Assembly: GCF_001583435.1 (NCBI RefSeq)
Contig: NZ_CP013251.1
Span: forward strand, 4,167,215-4,231,214
Origin: Endozoicomonas montiporae CL-33
Lineage (GTDB): Bacteria > Pseudomonadota > Gammaproteobacteria > Pseudomonadales > Endozoicomonadaceae
Length of the DNA: 64,000 nucleotides
Direction of reading: 5' to 3'
Every line of letters begins with the position of its first letter. Positions within the stretch are counted from its first letter, which is position 1. The notes beneath the pieces were generated by a model. The model was not told the origin of the DNA and did not search any database. It worked only from the letters and a program-made list of their open reading frames with translations. Of the stretch, positions 31,873 to 40,913 are shown in pieces. The translations under genes and the position numbers were made by a program.

Positions 31873-31910
31873 TACATTGAGCTCCTTTCCGTGACTGCTC
31901 CCCCAACTAA

Positions 31911-33635
31911 AGAGGGTGTCGCAAAACCCACTACAAGCCGGTAATCTGGATATAAAGTAGCTTTACCGGCTTCAGTATGACAACAAGACCGCAAATCAAG
32001 ATTAATACAGCTCCACAGCTCGATATTTTTTCAGGTGCAGCCAGTAGTCCGGATCACAAAAAACACGATAAGCCCAAAGGATCAGGCAACAAAACAGACA
32101 AACGACGTTTTGTTGCTCCGAACCCCAACGCCATCACCCTTGGCAACTCTAACTTGAAAGAACACCTTGAACTAACTGGTCAGAAAACACCTTTTACTGT
32201 TGCATCCCTTCTTGATGAGCAAGACTGGTCTGATTTTGAGCAAAGGTATGCCTCAGAAGGTCGCCCTCCTTATTCACCCCGTAACATGATGGGTTTGATT
32301 CTCTATGGCATTATGCAGGGCATTACCTCGCTGAGAACTCTGGAGCGACTAGCCCGTGTTGATCTTGGCTGTATGTGGGTTACCGGTGGGATTTTTCCAG
32401 ACCACGCCATTATTGGTCGCTTCATCAATATGCATAGCAAGTCCATGGCCGGTGCATTTTTTGAAAGCCTGACACGAGCCGTCCTCAAAAAGACGAACTC
32501 TGATGGTAGCTGTCTGGCTGGTGATGGAACGGTCATAGAAGCCGCCTGCTCAAGCTACAACCTGATGAAGCAGGAGGCTGCACAACAGGCTCATGAAACA
32601 GCACAAAAGCAAGCTGACAACCATCCAGACTGTCCTGAAAACAAAAAGAAACTGGAGATGGCCAGCAGTACTCTCGAAGCAGTTATTGAACGCAACGAGA
32701 AGCGAAAAAAGAATGGTAAATCAGGAAGTGCTGTCGTTAGCCCTACAGAGCCTGAAGCCGTTGTTCAAAAGATGAAACGGGGGCGAGGTTATACAACGGG
32801 TTACAAACCATCCGTGTTAGCCAATAACAAGCGGGTGGTACTGGCTCAGGCTGTTGATCCCACCAATGAAACAACTGTCGTAAGTCCAATGCTTGATCAG
32901 TCAATGCAGATCACGGGCAAACCAGTAGATGAAATGCTTCTGGATGCTGGTTACTTCAATGATGAAGTCATTTCAACCAGTCTGGAACGCGACATCAGCC
33001 TGCTATGCCCTGAGGGTAAAGAGCCAGGCAAGCCCAAAGAATCCAAAAAGTTCCAGAAGGGACATTTTTATTATGATGAGACTAATGACGTTTATCGTTG
33101 CCCTGCAGGAAAAGAGCTGGTTCTCATCGGGCAGATAAAGGGAAGCATTCGCACAAAAGAGCAAAAGATATATGGCAATGGACCGTGTGAAGGTTGTCCT
33201 CTCAAAGATCAGTGTACGACCAATAAGAAAGGGCGCCGCATAAAACGCTATGCGATGGATGATGCCAAGGATGCACTGAGGCAGGTTATGCAGCACCCGA
33301 AAGCTAAAAAGTCTTTCAGCAAAAGAAAGGCGATGGTTGAGCCTGTCTTTGCCTATTTACGGGATATACAGGGGTTAAACCGTTTTCGTCGCAAGGGGTT
33401 GGAGAAAGTTAAACTGGAGTTTGGCTTACACCTGCTGGCCTATAACCTGAGCCGGGCTGTAAAAGCCAGTTTTCACGCTATTTTCAGGTACAACAGGATT
33501 CTCTGGCTGTACTTTGAGCGGTATCGGCCATTTGACAGAAAATGGGGCAGCTGGGAAAGAGATCCAGTGAAGCGTCATTCTTTGCAGAGAAAAGTGCTTC
33601 ACTGGGTTTAAATTTTGGCTTTTAAGACACCCTCT
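31911..33635 (+). mobile_element. IS1182-family element, copy 1, inside the left hairpin of the IS605 element
   Basis: The ends are AGAGGGTGTCGCAAAA and TTTTAAGACACCCTCT. The flanks read CCCCAACTAA before and AAAGTTGGGG after; joined they make a perfect 8-bp stem with an AAAA loop, so the element sits in the loop of a palindrome. No longer target duplication is visible. Confidence 0.88.
31977..33611 (+). CDS. IS1182-family transposase, copy 1
   Basis: The 544-aa DDE transposase has an N-terminal domain (YSPRNMMGLILYGIMQGITSLR and the GGIFPDHAIIGRF signature, about residue 140), a catalytic LAGDGTVIEAACSS (Asp, about residue 182), a MLLDAGYFNDEV (second Asp, about 322), a cysteine cluster (CEGCPLKDQCTT) and a C-terminal RKAMVEPVFAYLRDIQGLNRFRRKGLEKV with the catalytic Glu. 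It appears intact. It is clearly related but not identical to the copy at 35363-37000; the last ~50 residues differ strongly. Confidence 0.92.
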   Translation: MTTRPQIKINTAPQLDIFSGAASSPDHKKHDKPKGSGNKTDKRRFVAPNPNAITLGNSNLKEHLELTGQKTPFTVASLLDEQDWSDFEQRYASEGRPPYSPRNMMGLILYGIMQGITSLRTLERLARVDLGCMWVTGGIFPDHAIIGRFINMHSKSMAGAFFESLTRAVLKKTNSDGSCLAGDGTVIEAACSSYNLMKQEAAQQAHETAQKQADNHPDCPENKKKLEMASSTLEAVIERNEKRKKNGKSGSAVVSPTEPEAVVQKMKRGRGYTTGYKPSVLANNKRVVLAQAVDPTNETTVVSPMLDQSMQITGKPVDEMLLDAGYFNDEVISTSLERDISLLCPEGKEPGKPKESKKFQKGHFYYDETNDVYRCPAGKELVLIGQIKGSIRTKEQKIYGNGPCEGCPLKDQCTTNKKGRRIKRYAMDDAKDALRQVMQHPKAKKSFSKRKAMVEPVFAYLRDIQGLNRFRRKGLEKVKLEFGLHLLAYNLSRAVKASFHAIFRYNRILWLYFERYRPFDRKWGSWERDPVKRHSLQRKVLHWV

Positions 33636-33657
33636 AAAGTTGGGGGCTTCTGACTTC

Positions 33658-34830
33658 TCAGGCAGCAACCAGCACTGTGCTGGATTTACGCTTGCCTCCA
33701 TCAGCAGAGACGGACAGCCCTTCCGCCTTTAATTTCAAAATACCTTGCTTCTTCACGTTGATGGCAGCGTTGATGTCACGATCTGCGACATACCCGCATT
33801 CACACGTCCATGACCGGATATTCAGCGGCATTTCCTCTTGCTTTCGATCACAGCAGGAACACGTCTTCGAGGAAGCAAACCACTGGTCGATCTTCACCAG
33901 ATGCTTACCTGCCTGTTTCGCTTTGTAGTCGAGCTTGATGACAAGGGAGTGCCAGCCTGCATCAGCTATGGATCGGGCAAGGCAATGGTTCTTGAGCATG
34001 TTCTTGACCTTCAGCGTTTCCACAATCACCGCTTGGTTTTCGTCAATGAGTTGTCTGGAAAGTTTGTGCTGAAAGTCATTACGGGCAAAGGCTACACGCT
34101 CATGCGCCTTTGCCACGAGTAATCTTGCTTTGACTCTGCCTTTAGAGCCTTTCTTGCATCTTGATAAAGCCTTCTGTTTTCGCTTCAGGTTGCGTTGTGC
34201 ATTTTTTATGAATCGGGGATTGCCGGTTTTTACTCCGGTACTGGTAATGGCAATGTCAGTTAAACCAACATCAACGCCAACTATGCGAGAGCTTTGCAGT
34301 TCGGTTATCTGCCTCGCTTCAGACATATCATCTTCAGCCAAAACAGAAGCGTAGAACTTACCTGTTGGTGTTTTGGTCAGAGTGATGGACTTGACTGTTC
34401 CGGTTATTTCTCTGTGAATCCTTGCCTTGATTGGTTTGCACTTGGGGACTTTGACCCAGTTTTCGCCCACAGCAACCGACATGCAATGGTAACTACTCTG
34501 TTTACCGTGTTTCGACTTGAAGCGGGGAAAGCGGGCTTCCAGCTTCGGGTTAAAGAAGTTCTGGAACGCCTTGTCCAGATTGATAACAGACTGCTGCAAG
34601 GCAATCGAATCAGCTTCTTTCAGCCATGAATATTTGCGGCTTTTCTTGGCAGTGACCAGCAGAGGTTTCAGGTCTTTTCTCGGGGAAAGATTCTGCTCCC
34701 GTACCTTATAGTAATGAGTCTTTATCGCCAGTGCCTTATTCCAGACCATACGCACAGCACCAAACTGACGGTTTAAAAAATCCGTCTGTTCTGGCGTTGG
34801 GTAGATGCGTACTTTAGTGGCTTTAAGCAT
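33658..34830 (-). CDS. tnpB: TnpB, RNA-guided nuclease of the IS605 element
   Basis: The 390-aa OrfB/TnpB protein is a likely omega-RNA-guided DNA nuclease. The RuvC catalytic set is intact: Asp in GVDVGLTDIAITSTG (about residue 190), Glu in VIVETLKVKNMLKN (about 270) and Asp in VADRDINAAINV (about 354). The zinc ribbon CSCC ... CECG (about 331-350) is also complete. The N-terminal MLKATKVRIYPTPEQTDFLNRQFG is the usual helix-turn-helix opening. The omega-RNA should overlap the gene's 3' end and run to the element end, which here is cut by IS1182 copy 1 just 22 bp after the tnpB stop codon. Confidence 0.93.
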   Translation of the reverse strand: MLKATKVRIYPTPEQTDFLNRQFGAVRMVWNKALAIKTHYYKVREQNLSPRKDLKPLLVTAKKSRKYSWLKEADSIALQQSVINLDKAFQNFFNPKLEARFPRFKSKHGKQSSYHCMSVAVGENWVKVPKCKPIKARIHREITGTVKSITLTKTPTGKFYASVLAEDDMSEARQITELQSSRIVGVDVGLTDIAITSTGVKTGNPRFIKNAQRNLKRKQKALSRCKKGSKGRVKARLLVAKAHERVAFARNDFQHKLSRQLIDENQAVIVETLKVKNMLKNHCLARSIADAGWHSLVIKLDYKAKQAGKHLVKIDQWFASSKTCSCCDRKQEEMPLNIRSWTCECGYVADRDINAAINVKKQGILKLKAEGLSVSADGGKRKSSTVLVAA

Positions 34831-34895
34831 TGGTGTATATCTGCTATATACTTTGATTTAAATATTTATAACGCATAATAGCAGGTTGGTGTATT

Positions 34896-35300
34896 TTGAC
34901 AATACGAAAAGGTAGGCACTGCGCTTTTGAGCTTCACGCCCACTTGGTTTTCTCCACCAAATATAGAGGTAAAGTGTTTAATGATAAGCACCTCAAGACT
35001 CTGGAAAATATTTTCCGGCATGTGTGCAATGAGTTTGAGGTAGAGCTGATCGAATTTAATGGAGAAACTGACCATATACACCTGCTCATTCACTATCCAC
35101 CAAAAGTACAGCTATCAAAGCTAGTGAATAGCCTCAAAGGGGTCAGCAGCCGAAAAATGAAGCTACATCATCCAGAACTGGTAAAGCCTGCCTATTTGAA
35201 AAATGCTTTATGGGCAAGAAGTTACTTTGCTGGCAGTTGCGGCGGCGCAAGCATTGATGTGCTCAAAACCTACATTGAGAATCAAGCCAGACCTGATTAG
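34896..35300 (+). CDS. tnpA: IS200/IS605 TnpA, Y1 HUH transposase
   Basis: The 134-aa single-strand transposase has the HUH motif as DHIHLLIHYPP (about residue 58) and the nucleophilic tyrosine in VLKTYIENQ near the C terminus (about residue 127). The length is normal for Y1 transposases and the protein is intact. It cuts and joins single-stranded element ends through their hairpins. Since both hairpins now contain IS1182 insertions, self-mobility is probably lost. A GTG at 34890 and the divergent tnpB start share a 65-bp control region. Confidence 0.93.
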   Translation: MTIRKGRHCAFELHAHLVFSTKYRGKVFNDKHLKTLENIFRHVCNEFEVELIEFNGETDHIHLLIHYPPKVQLSKLVNSLKGVSSRKMKLHHPELVKPAYLKNALWARSYFAGSCGGASIDVLKTYIENQARPD

Positions 35301-35338
35301 GAGTCCTTGCGGACTCCCGCCTTATATCCCCTGCCTAA

Positions 35339-37066
35339 AGAGGGTGTCTTAAAAGTCAAAACTCAAATCCAGTGAAGCACTACTTTTTGCAAAGCATGAT
35401 GCTTCATTGTGATTCTTCCCTTATTCGTTCGTTTGCTGCCAAATGACCAACGTGATCCAGATAGCAACCAGAGAAGCCAGTTTAACCATAAAATGACGTA
35501 AATACTGACTTTTACAGCACGACTCAGGTTATAGGCCAACAGGTGTAGGCCAAATTCCAGTTTAACTTTCTCCAGTCCCCTGCGACGAAAACGGTTTAAC
35601 CCCTGTATATCCCGTAAATAGGCAAAAACAGGCTCAACCATCGCCTTTCTTTTGCTGAAAGACTTTTTAGCTTTCGGATGCTGCATAACCTGCCTCAGTG
35701 CATCCTTGGCATCATCCATCGCATAGCGTTTTATGCGGCGCCCTTTCTTATTGGTCGTACACTGATCTTTGAGGGGGCAACCTTCACACGGCCCATTGCC
35801 ATATATCTTTTGCTCTTTTGTGCGAGTGCTTCCCTTTATCTTGCCGATGAGAACCAGCTCTTTTCCAGCAGGGCAATGATAAACGTCATTGGTTTCATCA
35901 TAATAAAAATGCCCCTTCTGGAACTTTGCTGACTCTTTGGGTTTGCCTGGCTCTTTACCCTCAGGGCATAGCAAACTGATATCGCGCTTCAGGCTGGTTG
36001 CAATAACGTCATCATTGAAATAACCCGCATCCAGTAGCATTTCATCAACAGGTTCACCCGTTACTTGCATTGACTGGTCAAGCATTGGGTTTACAACAGT
36101 CGTTTCATTGGTAGGGTCAACAGCCTGTGCCAGTACCACACGCTTGCTATTGGCTAATACCGATGGTTTGTAGCCTGTCGTGTATCCTCGCCCCCGTTTC
36201 ATCTTTTGAACAACGGCTTCAGGCTCTGTGGGGCTTACGACAGCACTTCCTGATTTACCGTTTTTCTTTCGCTTCTCATTGCGGTCAATAACTGCTTCGT
36301 AAGCACCGCTGGCCATCTCCAGGTTCTTTTGATTTTTAGCGGAATCTGGATGGTTGTCAGCTTTCTGTTGCGCTGCTTCAAGAGCTTGCTGCGCGGCTTC
36401 CTGCTTAATCAGGTTGTAGCTTGAGCAGGCTGCTTCTATGACCGTTCCATCACCAGCCAGACAACTTCCATCGGAGTCTGTTTTTTTGAGAACAGCTCGT
36501 GTCAGGCTTTCAAAAAATGCACCGGTCATGGACTCGCTATGCATGTTGATGAAGCGACCAATAATGGCATGATCTGGAAAAATCCCTCCGGTAACCCACA
36601 TACAACCAAGGTCAACACGAGCTAATCGTTCCAAAGTTCTCAGCGAGGTAATGCCCTGCATAATGCCATAGAGAATCAAACCCATCATATTACGGGGTGA
36701 ATAAGGAGGACGTCCTTCCGGGGCATACCTTTGCTCAAAATCAGACCAGTCCTGCTCATCAAGAAGTGCTGCAACCATGAAGGGCGTTTTTTGACCAGCC
36801 TGCTCAAGGTGCTCTTTCAGGCTCGTGTTACCGAGGGTGATAGTGTTGGGGTCAGGAGCAACAAAACGACGATTGTCTGATTTATGGCCTCCTGATCGTT
36901 TGGATTTGTCCTGCTTTTTGTGATCAGGACTACTGGCTGCACCTGAAAAAATATCGAGCTGTGGAGCAGTATTAATCTTTATTTGCGGTCTTGTTGTCAT
37001 GCTGGAGCCGGTAGAGCTACTTTATATTCAGATTACCGGCTTATGAAGGCTTTTGCGACACCCTCT
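35339..37066 (-). mobile_element. IS1182-family element, copy 2, inside the right hairpin of the IS605 element
   Basis: The ends are AGAGGGTGTCTTAAAAG and CTTTTGCGACACCCTCT. The flanks CCCCTGCCTAA and AAAAGTCAGGGG join into a 9-bp stem with one mismatch. The orientation is opposite to copy 1. Confidence 0.88.
35363..37000 (-). CDS. IS1182-family transposase, copy 2
   Basis: The 545-aa transposase has the same domains and catalytic residues as copy 1 (LAGDGTVIEAACSS, MLLDAGYFNDDV, RKAMVEPVFAYLRDIQ). It differs by many scattered substitutions (for example QDKSKRSGGHKSDNRR against HDKPKGSGNKTDKRR near the N terminus) and by an unrelated last ~45 residues. The two are therefore separate insertions of related elements, not one recent duplication. 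Confidence 0.92.
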   Translation of the reverse strand: MTTRPQIKINTAPQLDIFSGAASSPDHKKQDKSKRSGGHKSDNRRFVAPDPNTITLGNTSLKEHLEQAGQKTPFMVAALLDEQDWSDFEQRYAPEGRPPYSPRNMMGLILYGIMQGITSLRTLERLARVDLGCMWVTGGIFPDHAIIGRFINMHSESMTGAFFESLTRAVLKKTDSDGSCLAGDGTVIEAACSSYNLIKQEAAQQALEAAQQKADNHPDSAKNQKNLEMASGAYEAVIDRNEKRKKNGKSGSAVVSPTEPEAVVQKMKRGRGYTTGYKPSVLANSKRVVLAQAVDPTNETTVVNPMLDQSMQVTGEPVDEMLLDAGYFNDDVIATSLKRDISLLCPEGKEPGKPKESAKFQKGHFYYDETNDVYHCPAGKELVLIGKIKGSTRTKEQKIYGNGPCEGCPLKDQCTTNKKGRRIKRYAMDDAKDALRQVMQHPKAKKSFSKRKAMVEPVFAYLRDIQGLNRFRRRGLEKVKLEFGLHLLAYNLSRAVKVSIYVILWLNWLLWLLSGSRWSFGSKRTNKGRITMKHHALQKVVLHWI

Positions 37067-37387
37067 AAAAGTCAGGGGGCTTACGGCGAAAATGCTAACA
37101 ACCATTTATATGGGTTAGCAGCACGATCACCTTTGTCACCTGACAACCCTGAACGTCGGACTTTTCAGTCACTCTGACCTACCAGGTATTTTTCAGGGAT
37201 AGAAAATGAACGTTCAAGCAAATATATGCCCCGGGCTGATATGTGGCTATATACCTGACATCAGTTCTGCGTCAAACAGTGACTTAAATCACACATACCT
37301 GACTTTTGCTGAATTCGACTGTACCCGGCAAAAGTGTCTCGCTATGCTGATCCGAAAACTACATTTTAAACCATGAATTATTACAAA
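37067..37387. other. former upstream region of the cas operon
   Basis: About 320 bp between IS1182 copy 2 and the IS on the cas3 start. No gene is seen. It contains a candidate CRP site (37278-37293) and, at 37373, the original cas3 start codon followed by four codons (ATG AAT TAT TAC AAA) before the IS. I found no sigma-70 promoter with normal spacing. Confidence 0.6.
37278..37293. promoter_or_regulatory. candidate CRP-binding site upstream of cas3
   Basis: AGTGA-N6-TCACA matches the CRP half-site pattern TGTGA-N6-TCACA with one mismatch. It lies 80 bp before the ancestral cas3 start. cAMP-CRP control of type I cas operons is known in enterobacteria. The site is now separated from the operon by a 1.1-kb IS. 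Confidence 0.4.
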
Positions 37388-38494
37388 CTCATGTTACGCA
37401 CCCCTTCATCGACTGAAGTTTCTGGAACGATGATTTCAATGCAGTGAGATAAAGCTTTGCCCGCAACTCAAAATGGTTTAAATCAAGCTTATTAGCCAGC
37501 ACCTCGAGACGAAATGCCGAATATATCGACATAAACAGATGATTACTCTGCGTCAAAACTGTATAAGTCGGTGACTTGGCCATTGACGCATTAGATTTGA
37601 GTGTTTTATGGAAGACTTCAACTTTCCACCGTTTTTTGTAGATCGCCTTCAAAGCCTCTGCGTCACACTCAAGATCACTGCATATCAGATAGAGAATGCC
37701 CTTACTGCCATCTTTGTTTGTAAAGACCTGCCGGAACAGCAGAACGGGGAAGTCCACGCCTGCAATCCAGCCTTTGATAGGCTTTTCTTCTGAGAAATCA
37801 ATGGAATCTATGCGCTGTGAGCGCCCCCGACTTTTATCTTCCTCACTCAGCGAAACCTTCCGGTTTGACTTGCTGGCCATGACAAAATGCTTATCGCATT
37901 CGTGTCGTATATACAGCATGTTGTCGTTAGAACAGAACCAGCTATCTGCCAGCACGTAACGAAATTTGAGCTGATTATCACAGCAAACTTTCAGCATCTC
38001 CCGAAAGTCTTCGTTCTTGGTGGTTTCAGCCTTGCGTTTAACTTTTTTAGTTTTTACGTCGGAGTATTGAATAGGCTTTTCGATAAGCTTGTAGGCCACG
38101 GGAATAGAGATATCACCGACATGGTAAACAAAGTTGAGAAGGTTGATACCTTTTACCGAACGACCAAAGGTGTGATCAAAGTGCCATGCAATCAGGTCGT
38201 TCTCATCAGTGTAGAGTTTCTCCTGAATAGTGTCGTCGGCAATAAGTACTCCATCATCGCGCTCTTCCTGACGCACAACGGCTTTAACATGGTGCCAAAG
38301 AGTCTTACTGTCGAAGTGATTACGGGACAGAAGGCGTGTTACCTGATCATGGCTGTATGCGCCGTCCAGCAAAGATGACAGCTGTGTAGCTGTCGTTTTG
38401 CCGAATGAGGACAGCAGGTAATCGCTATACAGCTCAAACAGCTCTGTGTTCATGCTCTAAAGCATGGCAGATTTTTCTGGGTGCGTAACATGAG
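37388..38494 (-). mobile_element. 1107-bp insertion sequence (copy 2, at the cas3 start)
   Basis: It has the same 16-bp terminal inverted repeats as copy 1 and is flanked by the 7-bp duplication TTACAAA (37381-37387 and 38495-38501). It lies between codons 5 and 6 of the ancestral cas3. Its outer end CGTAACATGAG supplies a new in-frame ATG at 38490. Confidence 0.95.
37389..38453 (-). CDS. DDE transposase of the 1107-bp IS, copy 2
   Basis: 354 aa and identical in sequence to the transposase at 12858-13922. It is transcribed away from the cas genes. The identity of both proteins, and of the DNA segments compared, points to very recent movement. Confidence 0.88.
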   Translation of the reverse strand: MNTELFELYSDYLLSSFGKTTATQLSSLLDGAYSHDQVTRLLSRNHFDSKTLWHHVKAVVRQEERDDGVLIADDTIQEKLYTDENDLIAWHFDHTFGRSVKGINLLNFVYHVGDISIPVAYKLIEKPIQYSDVKTKKVKRKAETTKNEDFREMLKVCCDNQLKFRYVLADSWFCSNDNMLYIRHECDKHFVMASKSNRKVSLSEEDKSRGRSQRIDSIDFSEEKPIKGWIAGVDFPVLLFRQVFTNKDGSKGILYLICSDLECDAEALKAIYKKRWKVEVFHKTLKSNASMAKSPTYTVLTQSNHLFMSIYSAFRLEVLANKLDLNHFELRAKLYLTALKSSFQKLQSMKGCVT

Positions 38495-40913
38495 TTACAA
38501 ATACTGGGGAAAAGCAAAGTACGAGCCGGATCACCACAGCAGTGAATACCATCTGCTGCCCTATCACTGTCTGGATGTCGCTGCGGTAGCAGATCTCTGG
38601 CTAAGTGAGTCAGGTTCCCTGCTCTCACAAATCTCAAGGCACTTGAACACGCCCCCGGAACAAGCAAAAAGTGTTGTGCTGTTTTTCATACTTCTGCACG
38701 ATCTGGGCAAGTTCGACGCCCGCTTCCAGAATTTTCGGGAAGACATCAGGGTCTCATTGCAGGGAAGTGAATGGGAAGTCGATGCCGATCCCGTTTATTA
38801 TTCTCACGGACCATCTGGTTATAAACAGTTTTGCAGACTCTACGATACCAATGAAGCAATGAAAGCTGTGGCCGGTCATCATGGCTATTGTGACACCCTG
38901 TTCGACTACCACCCGCCTGAAGCAGACGACGAATTACTTGAACTTGATGATAAAGCTCGCAAAGAATGGATTCAGTTCTGTCTGAACTTCTGCCGCCTCA
39001 GCTCTGTCCCTGATGTTGGAGACATCCCGCTACTGGCGGGGCTATGCAGCGTGTCAGACTGGATAGGTTCATCAATTACCAACTTCACCACCGACTCTGA
39101 CATTGATCTTTGTGATTACTACCAGCAAACCCTTCCAAGAGCAAAAAAAGCCCTGACAGACGCAGGCATTATTAACCCACTACTGGGGGCGGGTTTTAAC
39201 TTCCTGTTCCCAGACTACCAGCCCCGAGGCATCCAAACCCTGCTGGGGCAATTACCACTGGAAGCCGGTCTTACCCTTGTAGAGTCAGACACCGGTTCAG
39301 GAAAAACAGAATGGGCTTTGGCCTATGCGTCCAAACTGATTGAATCCAACCTTGCCGATGGCATTGTGTTTGGCTTGCCAACTCAGGCAACAGCGAACGG
39401 TTTGTTCGACCGGATTGGCGAAGCCGCTGACAAACTATTCCCCGATGCCAAACCGACTCTGGCTCATGGCAAATCCCGCTATCTGTTTTCTGATGAGAGT
39501 GGCTTCTTGCACCAATCCAATAAACGGGCTTTTTTAGGGTCAGTATCCGTCGCCACTATCGATCAGATTCTGATGGGAGTGCTTAGTATTCGTCATCAGT
39601 TTGTTCGCTCCTTCGGCACTCGTAAGTCCGTGCTGATCCTGGATGAAGTACACAGCTATGACGCCTACATGACCGGTTTGATTGAACAGGTGCTGAAAGG
39701 TCAACATGAAGCGTTCTCAAGTGTCATACTGCTCTCTGCCACCTTGCACGATCCTTTAAAAGAAGCATTGCTCTCATGCTATCAGGGGCAATCACACACC
39801 AAACACTACCCGCTGATTAGTCATACGAGTTTACAGGGCACTACCCGGCACTTTTCATTAGACCACTCCTCTGAACCGACCAAAGTCATCACAACACAAT
39901 GCTGGCAAAGTGACGACCTGTTGCCTACTGCCGACCAGTTGAAAACCGTTAGGGAGTGGGTCAATCAAGGGGCAATGGTCGGAATAATCTGTAACACCGT
40001 AAAAGCCGCCCAGCGCTTATACCACCGATTAAACGACGGCTCATTGAATGTCCCCATAGACCTGTTTCACGCCCGTTACACGTTTTCAGACCGACAACAC
40101 CGGGAAGAACAGGTACTGGCAAGTTATGGAAAAAAAGCTCCACGGCAGGGGCGTTTGCTAATTGCCACCCAAGTCGTTGAGCAGTCACTCGATCTCGACT
40201 TTGATGTTCTGATCAGCCAGATAGCCCCCGTAGAATTTCTGATGCAACGAATGGGGCGGTTGTGGCGACATAACCGATGCAATACCGAACTGCACCCTCG
40301 TAGCGAGGTAGTTAAAACACCACTGTTTATTACGCTGTTGCCAGAGCCTCCCACTACTGCGCTGACAAAACAGGAGTGGAAACAGCACTATCAGGACAGC
40401 GGCTATGTGTACAAAAATATTCGTCTGCTGTTCCGCACAGAAGTCTATCTGAAACAGCGTCAACAAATGTCATTTCCGGCCTGCTACCGGGAAGCGATCG
40501 ATTATGTGCATCAGGTTGATGCCTGCGACGATGAGCCAGACGCTCTGACGATCATTGCTGAAGAACACAACATCAGAGCACAAGGGGCTAACTACACTGC
40601 ACGATTGCTAAGCAACCTTCAGTCCAGGCCACTCAGTGATATCGATCCACGCTGCGCTCTGCTAACCCGTGACGGGGAAATGAGTGAATCCGTTGTTTTG
40701 TTCAACGCAAAAGGCGAACTACTCCATGGCGGGCATTTTGGCGAACAGCAAGATCGTGAAAACAGCACCGTAGCACTGACAAAGAAGCACGTTAAAGGCA
40801 CCAAAGATGAAAAAAACTATTGCACCAGGGCAGTGGTTGGAAAAGACATCATTTACAACGAAATGGGTGTTATTGAATCTGACCTTGTCAATGAACTGAA
40901 TACAGGAAGTTAA
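38490..40913 (+). CDS. cas3: Cas3 helicase-nuclease, type I-E
   Basis: The 807-aa protein opens with YKYWGKAKYEPDHHSSEYHLLPYHCLDVAAVADLW, matching E. coli Cas3 after its HYWGK start; cited here by key residues YWGK and HCLDVAAVA. The HD nuclease motif LLHDLGKFDARF is at about residue 68. The SF2 helicase has Walker A SDTGSGKTEWALAYA (about 270), DEVHSYDAYM (about 385), LLSATL (about 415) and the C-terminal VVEQSLDLDF plus QRMGRLWRH. It unwinds and degrades DNA marked by Cascade. The present ATG comes from the end of an inserted IS; the first residues changed from MNYYKYW to MSYKYW, so the protein is practically intact. Promoter access is another matter, as the IS separates it from its old upstream region. 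Confidence 0.95.
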   Translation: MSYKYWGKAKYEPDHHSSEYHLLPYHCLDVAAVADLWLSESGSLLSQISRHLNTPPEQAKSVVLFFILLHDLGKFDARFQNFREDIRVSLQGSEWEVDADPVYYSHGPSGYKQFCRLYDTNEAMKAVAGHHGYCDTLFDYHPPEADDELLELDDKARKEWIQFCLNFCRLSSVPDVGDIPLLAGLCSVSDWIGSSITNFTTDSDIDLCDYYQQTLPRAKKALTDAGIINPLLGAGFNFLFPDYQPRGIQTLLGQLPLEAGLTLVESDTGSGKTEWALAYASKLIESNLADGIVFGLPTQATANGLFDRIGEAADKLFPDAKPTLAHGKSRYLFSDESGFLHQSNKRAFLGSVSVATIDQILMGVLSIRHQFVRSFGTRKSVLILDEVHSYDAYMTGLIEQVLKGQHEAFSSVILLSATLHDPLKEALLSCYQGQSHTKHYPLISHTSLQGTTRHFSLDHSSEPTKVITTQCWQSDDLLPTADQLKTVREWVNQGAMVGIICNTVKAAQRLYHRLNDGSLNVPIDLFHARYTFSDRQHREEQVLASYGKKAPRQGRLLIATQVVEQSLDLDFDVLISQIAPVEFLMQRMGRLWRHNRCNTELHPRSEVVKTPLFITLLPEPPTTALTKQEWKQHYQDSGYVYKNIRLLFRTEVYLKQRQQMSFPACYREAIDYVHQVDACDDEPDALTIIAEEHNIRAQGANYTARLLSNLQSRPLSDIDPRCALLTRDGEMSESVVLFNAKGELLHGGHFGEQQDRENSTVALTKKHVKGTKDEKNYCTRAVVGKDIIYNEMGVIESDLVNELNTGS

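Follow-up and report, generated by a model that had tools for sequence, protein, structure and literature searches.

Hairpin ends of an IS605-type element occupied by IS1182-family elements in Endozoicomonas montiporae

How two transposons of one family came to lie in the two recognition ends of a transposon of another family is the question raised by a locus of Endozoicomonas montiporae CL-33. The stretch of DNA analysed here (the window; 64,000 nucleotides, contig NZ_CP013251.1, positions 4,167,215 to 4,231,214) contains an IS605-type element, each of whose two ends holds a 1.7-kb guest of the IS1182 family. An earlier note on this DNA had claimed that the guests occupy the two end hairpins through separate events, and had suggested that relatives of IS1182 recognise small hairpins. 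With a probability of about 0.78, we read the locus as the work of an IS1182 clade that prefers short hairpins and duplicates their loop, that finds prime targets in IS605 ends, and that hit both IS605 copies of this genome at both ends independently. The targeting behaviour is confirmed and general, and it is strikingly associated with IS605 ends.

Two guests in the end hairpins of one element

The boundaries of the IS605-type element were set by a second copy in the same genome and by relatives. The features of the locus, in window coordinates, are:

31891..37094, minus strand: IS605-type element including both guests
31891: right end of the IS605-type element, GTGACTGCT on the plus strand
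31900..31907, plus strand: right-end hairpin, outer arm CCCCCAAC
31908..31911, plus strand: target duplication TAAA, first copy at the right end (the hairpin loop)
31912..33634, plus strand: IS1182-family element of type 1 (copy 1), 1723 bp, ends GAGGGTGTC/GACACCCTC
31977..33611, plus strand: IS1182-family DDE transposase of type 1, 544 amino acids (NF033551)
33635..33638, plus strand: target duplication TAAA, second copy at the right end
33639..33646, plus strand: right-end hairpin, inner arm GTTGGGGG
33658..34830, minus strand: tnpB, RNA-guided nuclease of IS605, 390 amino acids (PF01385, PF07282, NF040570)
34896..35300, plus strand: tnpA, Y1 HUH transposase, 134 amino acids (PF01797, NF033573)
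35300..35317, plus strand: second, subterminal left-end hairpin GGAGTCC TTGC GGACTCC, unoccupied; a similar hairpin lies there in relatives
35328..35335, plus strand: left-end hairpin, inner arm CCCCTGCC
35336..35339, plus strand: target duplication TAAA, first copy at the left end
35340..37065, minus strand: IS1182-family element of type 2 (copy 2), 1726 bp
35363..37000, minus strand: IS1182-family DDE transposase of type 2, 545 amino acids, 86% identical to type 1 (NF033551)
37066..37069, plus strand: target duplication TAAA, second copy at the left end
37070..37078, plus strand: left-end hairpin, outer arm AGTCAGGGG
37094: left end of the IS605-type element, adjoining the TTAG site at 37095-37098, read on the minus strand

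Copy 1 is preceded by CCCCCAAC-TAAA and followed by TAAA-GTTGGGGG, and copy 2 lies between CCCCTGCC-TAAA and TAAA-AGTCAGGGG. This is the layout that the earlier note had described, with a finer parse: when the guest ends are read as GAGGGTGTC...GACACCCTC, both insertions carry a 4-bp target duplication, TAAA on the plus strand, that corresponds exactly to the loop, and the 'AA' and 'AAA' joints noted before in an A-rich loop are part of it. Without the guests, the right end reads CCCCCAAC-TAAA-GTTGGGGG and the left end, in the minus-strand sense, CCCCTGACT-TTTA-GGCAGGGG. Both had been claimed as hairpins; both can form, the left-end one imperfectly (6 bp, an interruption, then a further pair). 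The folds exceed chance: in a 400-kb sample of this genome, with 57,080 positions, the right-end site is matched by 0.026% and the left-end site by 0.23%.

Both guests have terminal inverted repeats (GAGGGTGTC/GACACCCTC) and a single transposase gene, and both transposases pass the NCBIfam cut-off for the family (NF033551, 270 bits) with 298.3 (type 1) and 296.3 bits (type 2). The putative catalytic acidic residues, which for type 1 we take from the familiar motif to be D183, D323 and E455, are invariant among 25 aligned relatives; the transposase profile had no match among solved structures at E 0.01. The two types share 87.7% of their DNA sequence and diverge in the C termini of their proteins, as had been seen from the translations.

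The host encodes both the Y1 transposase TnpA and TnpB, and its ends show subterminal hairpins, a conserved left tetranucleotide and no target duplication; TTAG precedes the left end in both genomic copies and in the observed Photorhabdus relatives. Genomes of the same family and Photorhabdus thracensis contain the same layout with intact, free hairpins: at the left end TTAG is followed by a hairpin, by GATATAAGGC or a close variant and, where visible, by the second hairpin, and at the right end a hairpin is followed by GGGGAGCAGTCAC. The genome of E. montiporae itself harbours five short IS605-derived elements (L183-L187; L and G numbers denote our loci and genomes) with both hairpins free, and one free right end among these unoccupied paralogues carries the identical outer arm, CCCCCAACTGAAGTAGGGGG. 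Eight right-end signatures exist in this genome, two in the occupied copies, five in the short elements and one in an apparent remnant without a hairpin. The occupied hairpins are IS605 end hairpins, and the identification made in the earlier note is borne out by these free counterparts.

A second IS605 copy with exchanged guests

This IS605 occurs a second time at 2.146-2.151 Mb (L030), in a copy whose body has 2 substitutions relative to that of the window and whose outer sequence is different. Its hairpins are both occupied as well, with the types swapped, type 2 at the right end and type 1 at the left. Of 221 diagnostic columns, 219 assign each guest to a single type, and chimerism is nearly absent; the exceptions are columns 263 and 1388, one internal base per exchanged guest, and the last column, which belongs to the flank. 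The departure from the other type-1 copies at column 263 is on the side of the window copy. The left-end duplication is TTTA (4 bp) in the window and TTTTA (5 bp) in L030.

A gene pair flanked by two inverted IS1182 copies might be taken for a composite transposon, in which the guests brought the IS605 core here as a single unit. We regard this as next to impossible and rejected it from the flanks: a separate loop duplication and a separate set of matching hairpin arms bracket each of the two IS1182 insertions, and the outer arms belong to IS605 ends in the window and in L030 alike, which is not the layout of a composite with a duplication outside the IS1182 pair. Two separate targeted events, as proposed before, thus hold for the window. 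Four separate insertions are the simplest account of both IS605 copies and are favoured over one composite transposon because the types are swapped, the guests are nearly unmixed and the duplication lengths differ.

Whole-element conversion is the rival of this account. An IS605 carrying both guests could have been duplicated once and its guests exchanged later by inversion or gene conversion, a course of events which we consider unlikely and to which the near identity of the two IS605 bodies lends some weight. So does the distribution of guests, with 4 of 4 ends of the full copies occupied against 0 of 10 in the short IS605-derived elements (Fisher, 1/1001), and so do apparent recombination products between IS1182 elements at IS605 ends in Photorhabdus and the single internal base of each exchanged guest that matches the other type. 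Adherence to a single type at 219 of 221 columns and the unequal left-end duplications argue in the opposite direction, and an inversion would mispair the hairpin arms, yet these match; inversion or simple recombination as the source of the swapped types is therefore disfavoured.

Hairpins as targets beyond the locus

The generality of the behaviour was assessed on 36 sites (27 at first, 9 added later) that carry a 4-5 bp duplication and do not duplicate one another, from the genome of E. montiporae, relatives in the Endozoicomonas group, Photorhabdus, Massilia and others, all folded with the loop held open. Ends were inspected at 40 loci, namely 33 of a set of 50 together with L001, L006 and L047-L051; the 17 of the 50 left out were mostly partial matches or contig-end cases, picked by eye. 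Fifteen of the 40 lack a 4-5 bp duplication and were excluded (L059, L062, L063, L065, L066, L068, L074-L076, L082-L085, L090, L098), as were L047 (a hybrid), L048 (whose right arm is another IS end) and L071, L001 and L006 (duplicate arms), so that 20 were retained. The own genome contributed seven sites, the two in L030 being excluded as duplicates, and 20 further stretches chosen for paired or single ends contributed nine, with 11 excluded for want of a pair or of a 4-5 bp duplication, or as hybrids or arrays. By class, 16 sites are 'other', 14 IS605-type, four REP-like and two (L053 and L057, retained) probable hybrids; the IS605 label rests on adjacent genes for most, for L232 and L235 on the arms together with an IS605 known from that position, and on similarity only for L032 and L227.

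The summed arm energy of the 36 sites is -190.7, compared with -114.0 +/- 10.5 when right arms are re-dealt among sites; none of 10,000 re-dealings was as good, nor was any of 300 sets with arms shuffled internally. The 16 sites that are neither IS605, REP nor hybrid give 0 of 10,000 by themselves. When the flanks of the copies were joined, as the earlier note had suggested, 21 of the 36 sites fell in the best 1% and 23 in the best 5% of the 57,080 own-genome positions, a background that is only indicative for sites in foreign genomes; the hairpins so found are not confined to IS605. A looser, register-free pairing score was discarded, since 36% of random positions matched the weakest own site and failed folds skewed the mean.

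The arms have a marked polarity, with C exceeding G on the left at all 36 sites and G exceeding C on the right at 34; the two polarities are represented about equally in the 400-kb sample, with 90 hairpin clusters of this one and 79 of the opposite one. In IS30, a transposase dimer reads two half-sites in double-stranded DNA, and the transposase studied here could similarly read two C-rich half-sites 4-5 bp apart in ordinary duplex, the hairpin potential being incidental since IS605 ends, REPs and terminators often contain such dyads. We consider this possible but rather doubtful. It agrees with the polarity and with L049, L060 and L073, which keep a C-rich left arm without a stem. It accords poorly with the inner stem bases, which pair far beyond re-dealing outside IS605 ends too, and with the behaviour of motif-bearing positions: CCC/GGG is present in 15 of the first 27 sites, and 12 of these 15 fold at -5 or better, against 119 of 1209 motif-bearing background positions (9.8%). 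With two alternative definitions of the motif, the figures were 13 of 19 against 151 of 2840 and 15 of 19 against 123 of 1963. A C/G dyad alone is thus insufficient, motif-bearing sites folding far oftener than motif-bearing background. Sequence statistics do not distinguish folded from linear dyads; the transposase may recognise a folded form, cruciform or single-stranded, beyond the dyad.

On the favoured reading, the clade with ends GAGGGTGTC/GACACCCTC or close variants would favour short hairpins, C-rich in the 5' arm and G-rich in the 3' arm, as insertion sites. Joining at the two 5' sides of the loop would turn its 4-5 nucleotides into the target duplication and leave each arm on its own side of the inserted element. 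Terminal hairpins of IS200/IS605 elements would be prime targets; the window IS605 was hit at both ends, and the second copy would have been hit independently, at both ends, by the other type.

The occupation of IS605 ends recurs in several genera, as the earlier note had anticipated. The genome of E. montiporae has nine IS1182 copies with both ends, one of them split by another element. Six have a tnpA or tnpB gene no more than 250 bp away, and the hairpin that a seventh (L032) occupies is identical to the one at the left end of a miniature IS605 in G022, so that IS200/IS605-type ends house seven of the nine; the remaining two lie in a strong hairpin (L033), probably terminator-like because it is located just beyond a reading frame, and in a weak one (L031). 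In P. thracensis, at least one IS605 end arm flanks eight of ten compared copies with both exact ends, the exceptions being L067 and L070, the latter in a perfect stem between two convergent genes. A tblastn search with two TnpA queries and one TnpB query from the own genome found matches in 24 of 73 loci (L030-L102, several chosen because they bear tnpB). These include 14 of the set of 50 loci, with tnpA/tnpB matches, some of them short or 1.7-2 kb from the IS1182, in Massilia, a Burkholderiaceae metagenome-assembled genome, Modicisalibacter, Photorhabdus, Nitrincola, Halomonas and Hp36. Terminator-like hairpins are also targeted, as are palindromes (L050, L051, L079, L088) that we take to be REP sequences. 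The 5' end of the transposase gene faces outward in all four copies at the two full IS605s; no orientation rule for guests emerged, both orientations occurring among L032, L034 and the Photorhabdus copies.

Searches by class, order and family found copies only in G000, G025, G027 and G037 among the best 3-4 candidates scored per genome, and a plasmid search returned a single plasmid record; a single-protein scan gave no match in genome contigs or in viral contigs. The same-genus genome G027 (L221-L231, L240) has 194 IS1182-type ends. In 11 of its stretches, chosen for paired ends, the pairs are 47-359 bp apart, several near 249 bp, and some lie in REP-like palindromes whose repeats are nested, in tandem or spaced by 40 bp.

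Extrapolated from the 400-kb sample, a genome would have about 1222 hairpins that match in polarity and strength, about 190 of them outside reading frames of at least 100 amino acids; by our estimate IS605-type ends number up to 40 (14 gene-bearing elements plus six right-end matches). Seven of nine copies at IS605 ends then correspond to P values of 3e-11 to 4e-4, and five of seven distinct targets to 5e-8 to 6e-3, depending on the hairpin pool. The excess holds on these assumptions and is partly explained by hairpin type. It probably owes part to selection against insertions in genes, and the preference may in part reflect the presence of non-essential hairpins with a C-rich 5' arm at IS605 ends.

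Several observations weigh against the favoured reading. With the intergenic, polarity-matched pool (about 190 hairpins, up to about 40 of them IS605 ends) the excess is modest, P being about 4e-4 for seven of nine and 6e-3 for five of seven, and the 10 free ends of the short IS605-derived elements of the own genome have not been hit. For the 14 IS605-type sites alone, 26 of 10,000 re-dealings do as well as the observed arms, a weaker contrast because those hairpins resemble one another. Thirteen of the 36 sites are weak, with p of 0.05 or worse (L054, L064, L221, L053, L067, L225, L031, L236, L057, L049, L060, L230, L073); hairpins are therefore preferred, not required, and the earlier claim that these elements recognise hairpins stands as a preference. 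The same element in a non-palindromic target had been named beforehand as its counter-example, and L031, a type-1 copy with 1725 aligned bases identical to the window copy and a weak hairpin, goes part of the way.

Other elements lie in or beside these sites. At L035 (4340-8731), a two-gene element, presumably IS21-like, divides the IS1182 copy that occupies a hairpin next to tnpA, and at L034 (5580-8310) the tnpB of another IS605-type element, beside an occupied left end, is interrupted by a further gene that we take to be transposase-like. Single IS1182 ends beside IS605-like outer arms at G000:C1:1711560 (L237) and 4897800 (L238) are possible remnants of occupied ends. In the window, an IS701-family element (37386-38496, with perfect 18-bp inverted repeats at 37386-37403 and 38479-38496) directly adjoins the IS605, and beside it runs a long reading frame (38481-40913), presumably helicase-like.

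Hybrid units, known systems and consequences

Several IS1182 copies or derivatives of P. thracensis join an outer left to an outer right IS605 arm (L066, L068, L082, L084, L090, L233), and in L083, which looks like an inversion product, the inner left arm is joined to an outer right arm. Deletion or inversion between two guests, whether of one IS605 element or of different ones, would be expected to yield such joins. In the related genome G022, one IS1182 lies between two outer ends of this IS605 without the body (L047). At L224 in G027, too, an IS1182-type element was seen between outer arms of opposite IS605 ends, the body missing.

It is conceivable that IS605 outer ends with an IS1182 between them, the body having been lost, form a new unit moved by TnpA in trans, which we judge distinctly improbable. 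That both outer ends are present at a number of P. thracensis loci (L066, L068, L084, L233) and at one in G022 would fit such hitch-hiking, as would one transposase frameshift common to four Photorhabdus copies (L082, L083, L084, L090) and the finding of only short IS605-body matches in G022, where 9 of 30 first-look candidates were scored and the absence is not firm. Both IS orientations occur, however, L082 is without part of the left end, L090 joins a different right end, and deletion by recombination between two IS1182 copies accounts for each case separately. Quite unlikely, too, is a broader scenario in which the clade is specialised on hairpins that TnpA enzymes fold or handle (IS200/IS605 ends and REP palindromes), the activity of one family exposing the targets of the other, and in which the IS605 body is lost after double occupation, leaving behind an IS1182 framed by outer ends, a hybrid that TnpA might still be able to mobilise.

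That members of the IS1182 family target hairpins is already known. According to PMC5678879 and PMC4923244, IS1272 targets hairpins, mostly of unrelated sequence and including several terminators, and removes them wholly or partly without a duplication; for the targeting of palindromes by some members of the family both refer to a 2015 review, and some non-palindromic IS1272 targets are also reported (PMC5678879). The elements described here resemble IS1272/TnSha1 of staphylococci in transposase family and in folding targets without a fixed sequence, which in our set have a C-rich 5' arm throughout, 13 of the 36 being weak. They differ in keeping both arms and duplicating the 4-5 bp loop, whereas IS1272/TnSha1 loses part or all of the hairpin. 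This matches the loop-duplicating 'pathway c' drawn as an alternative in PMC5678879, where the new insertions themselves are without duplication.

Elements that target REP sequences are described in five families, IS3, IS110, IS4, IS256 and IS5 (PMC1525189); IS1397/ISKpn1 (IS3 family) and IS621 (IS110 family) likewise insert in short repeated palindromes, these being REP sequences, unlike the IS605 ends here, and IS605 has no occurrence in the accessible text of that paper. ISCaa15, an IS1182-family element of Amoebophilus, is tabulated with 4-bp direct repeats and two copies, and the excerpt available makes no mention of a hairpin target (PMC3196728). A literature search of titles and abstract openings, with most subscription papers outside its reach, found no description of a link between IS1182 and IS605 ends. 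Loop duplication combined with recurrent occupation of IS605 ends makes this a new form of the known hairpin targeting.

The host is an ordinary member of the IS200/IS605 family, with end hairpins, a TTAG left site and the accessory TnpB, except that both of its recognition hairpins carry a 1.7-kb guest. The guide RNA of TnpB probably needs the outer half of the element end, from which a right-end guest should separate tnpB. One transposon family repeatedly lands in the recognition ends of another; guest insertion should disable IS605 movement, and double occupation would stop it. For the IS1182 family, these elements represent a hairpin-targeted DDE transposon whose target outlives the insertion. 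Both arms and the loop duplication are kept and empty sites can therefore be read directly, which makes the question of cruciform, single strand or dyad testable.

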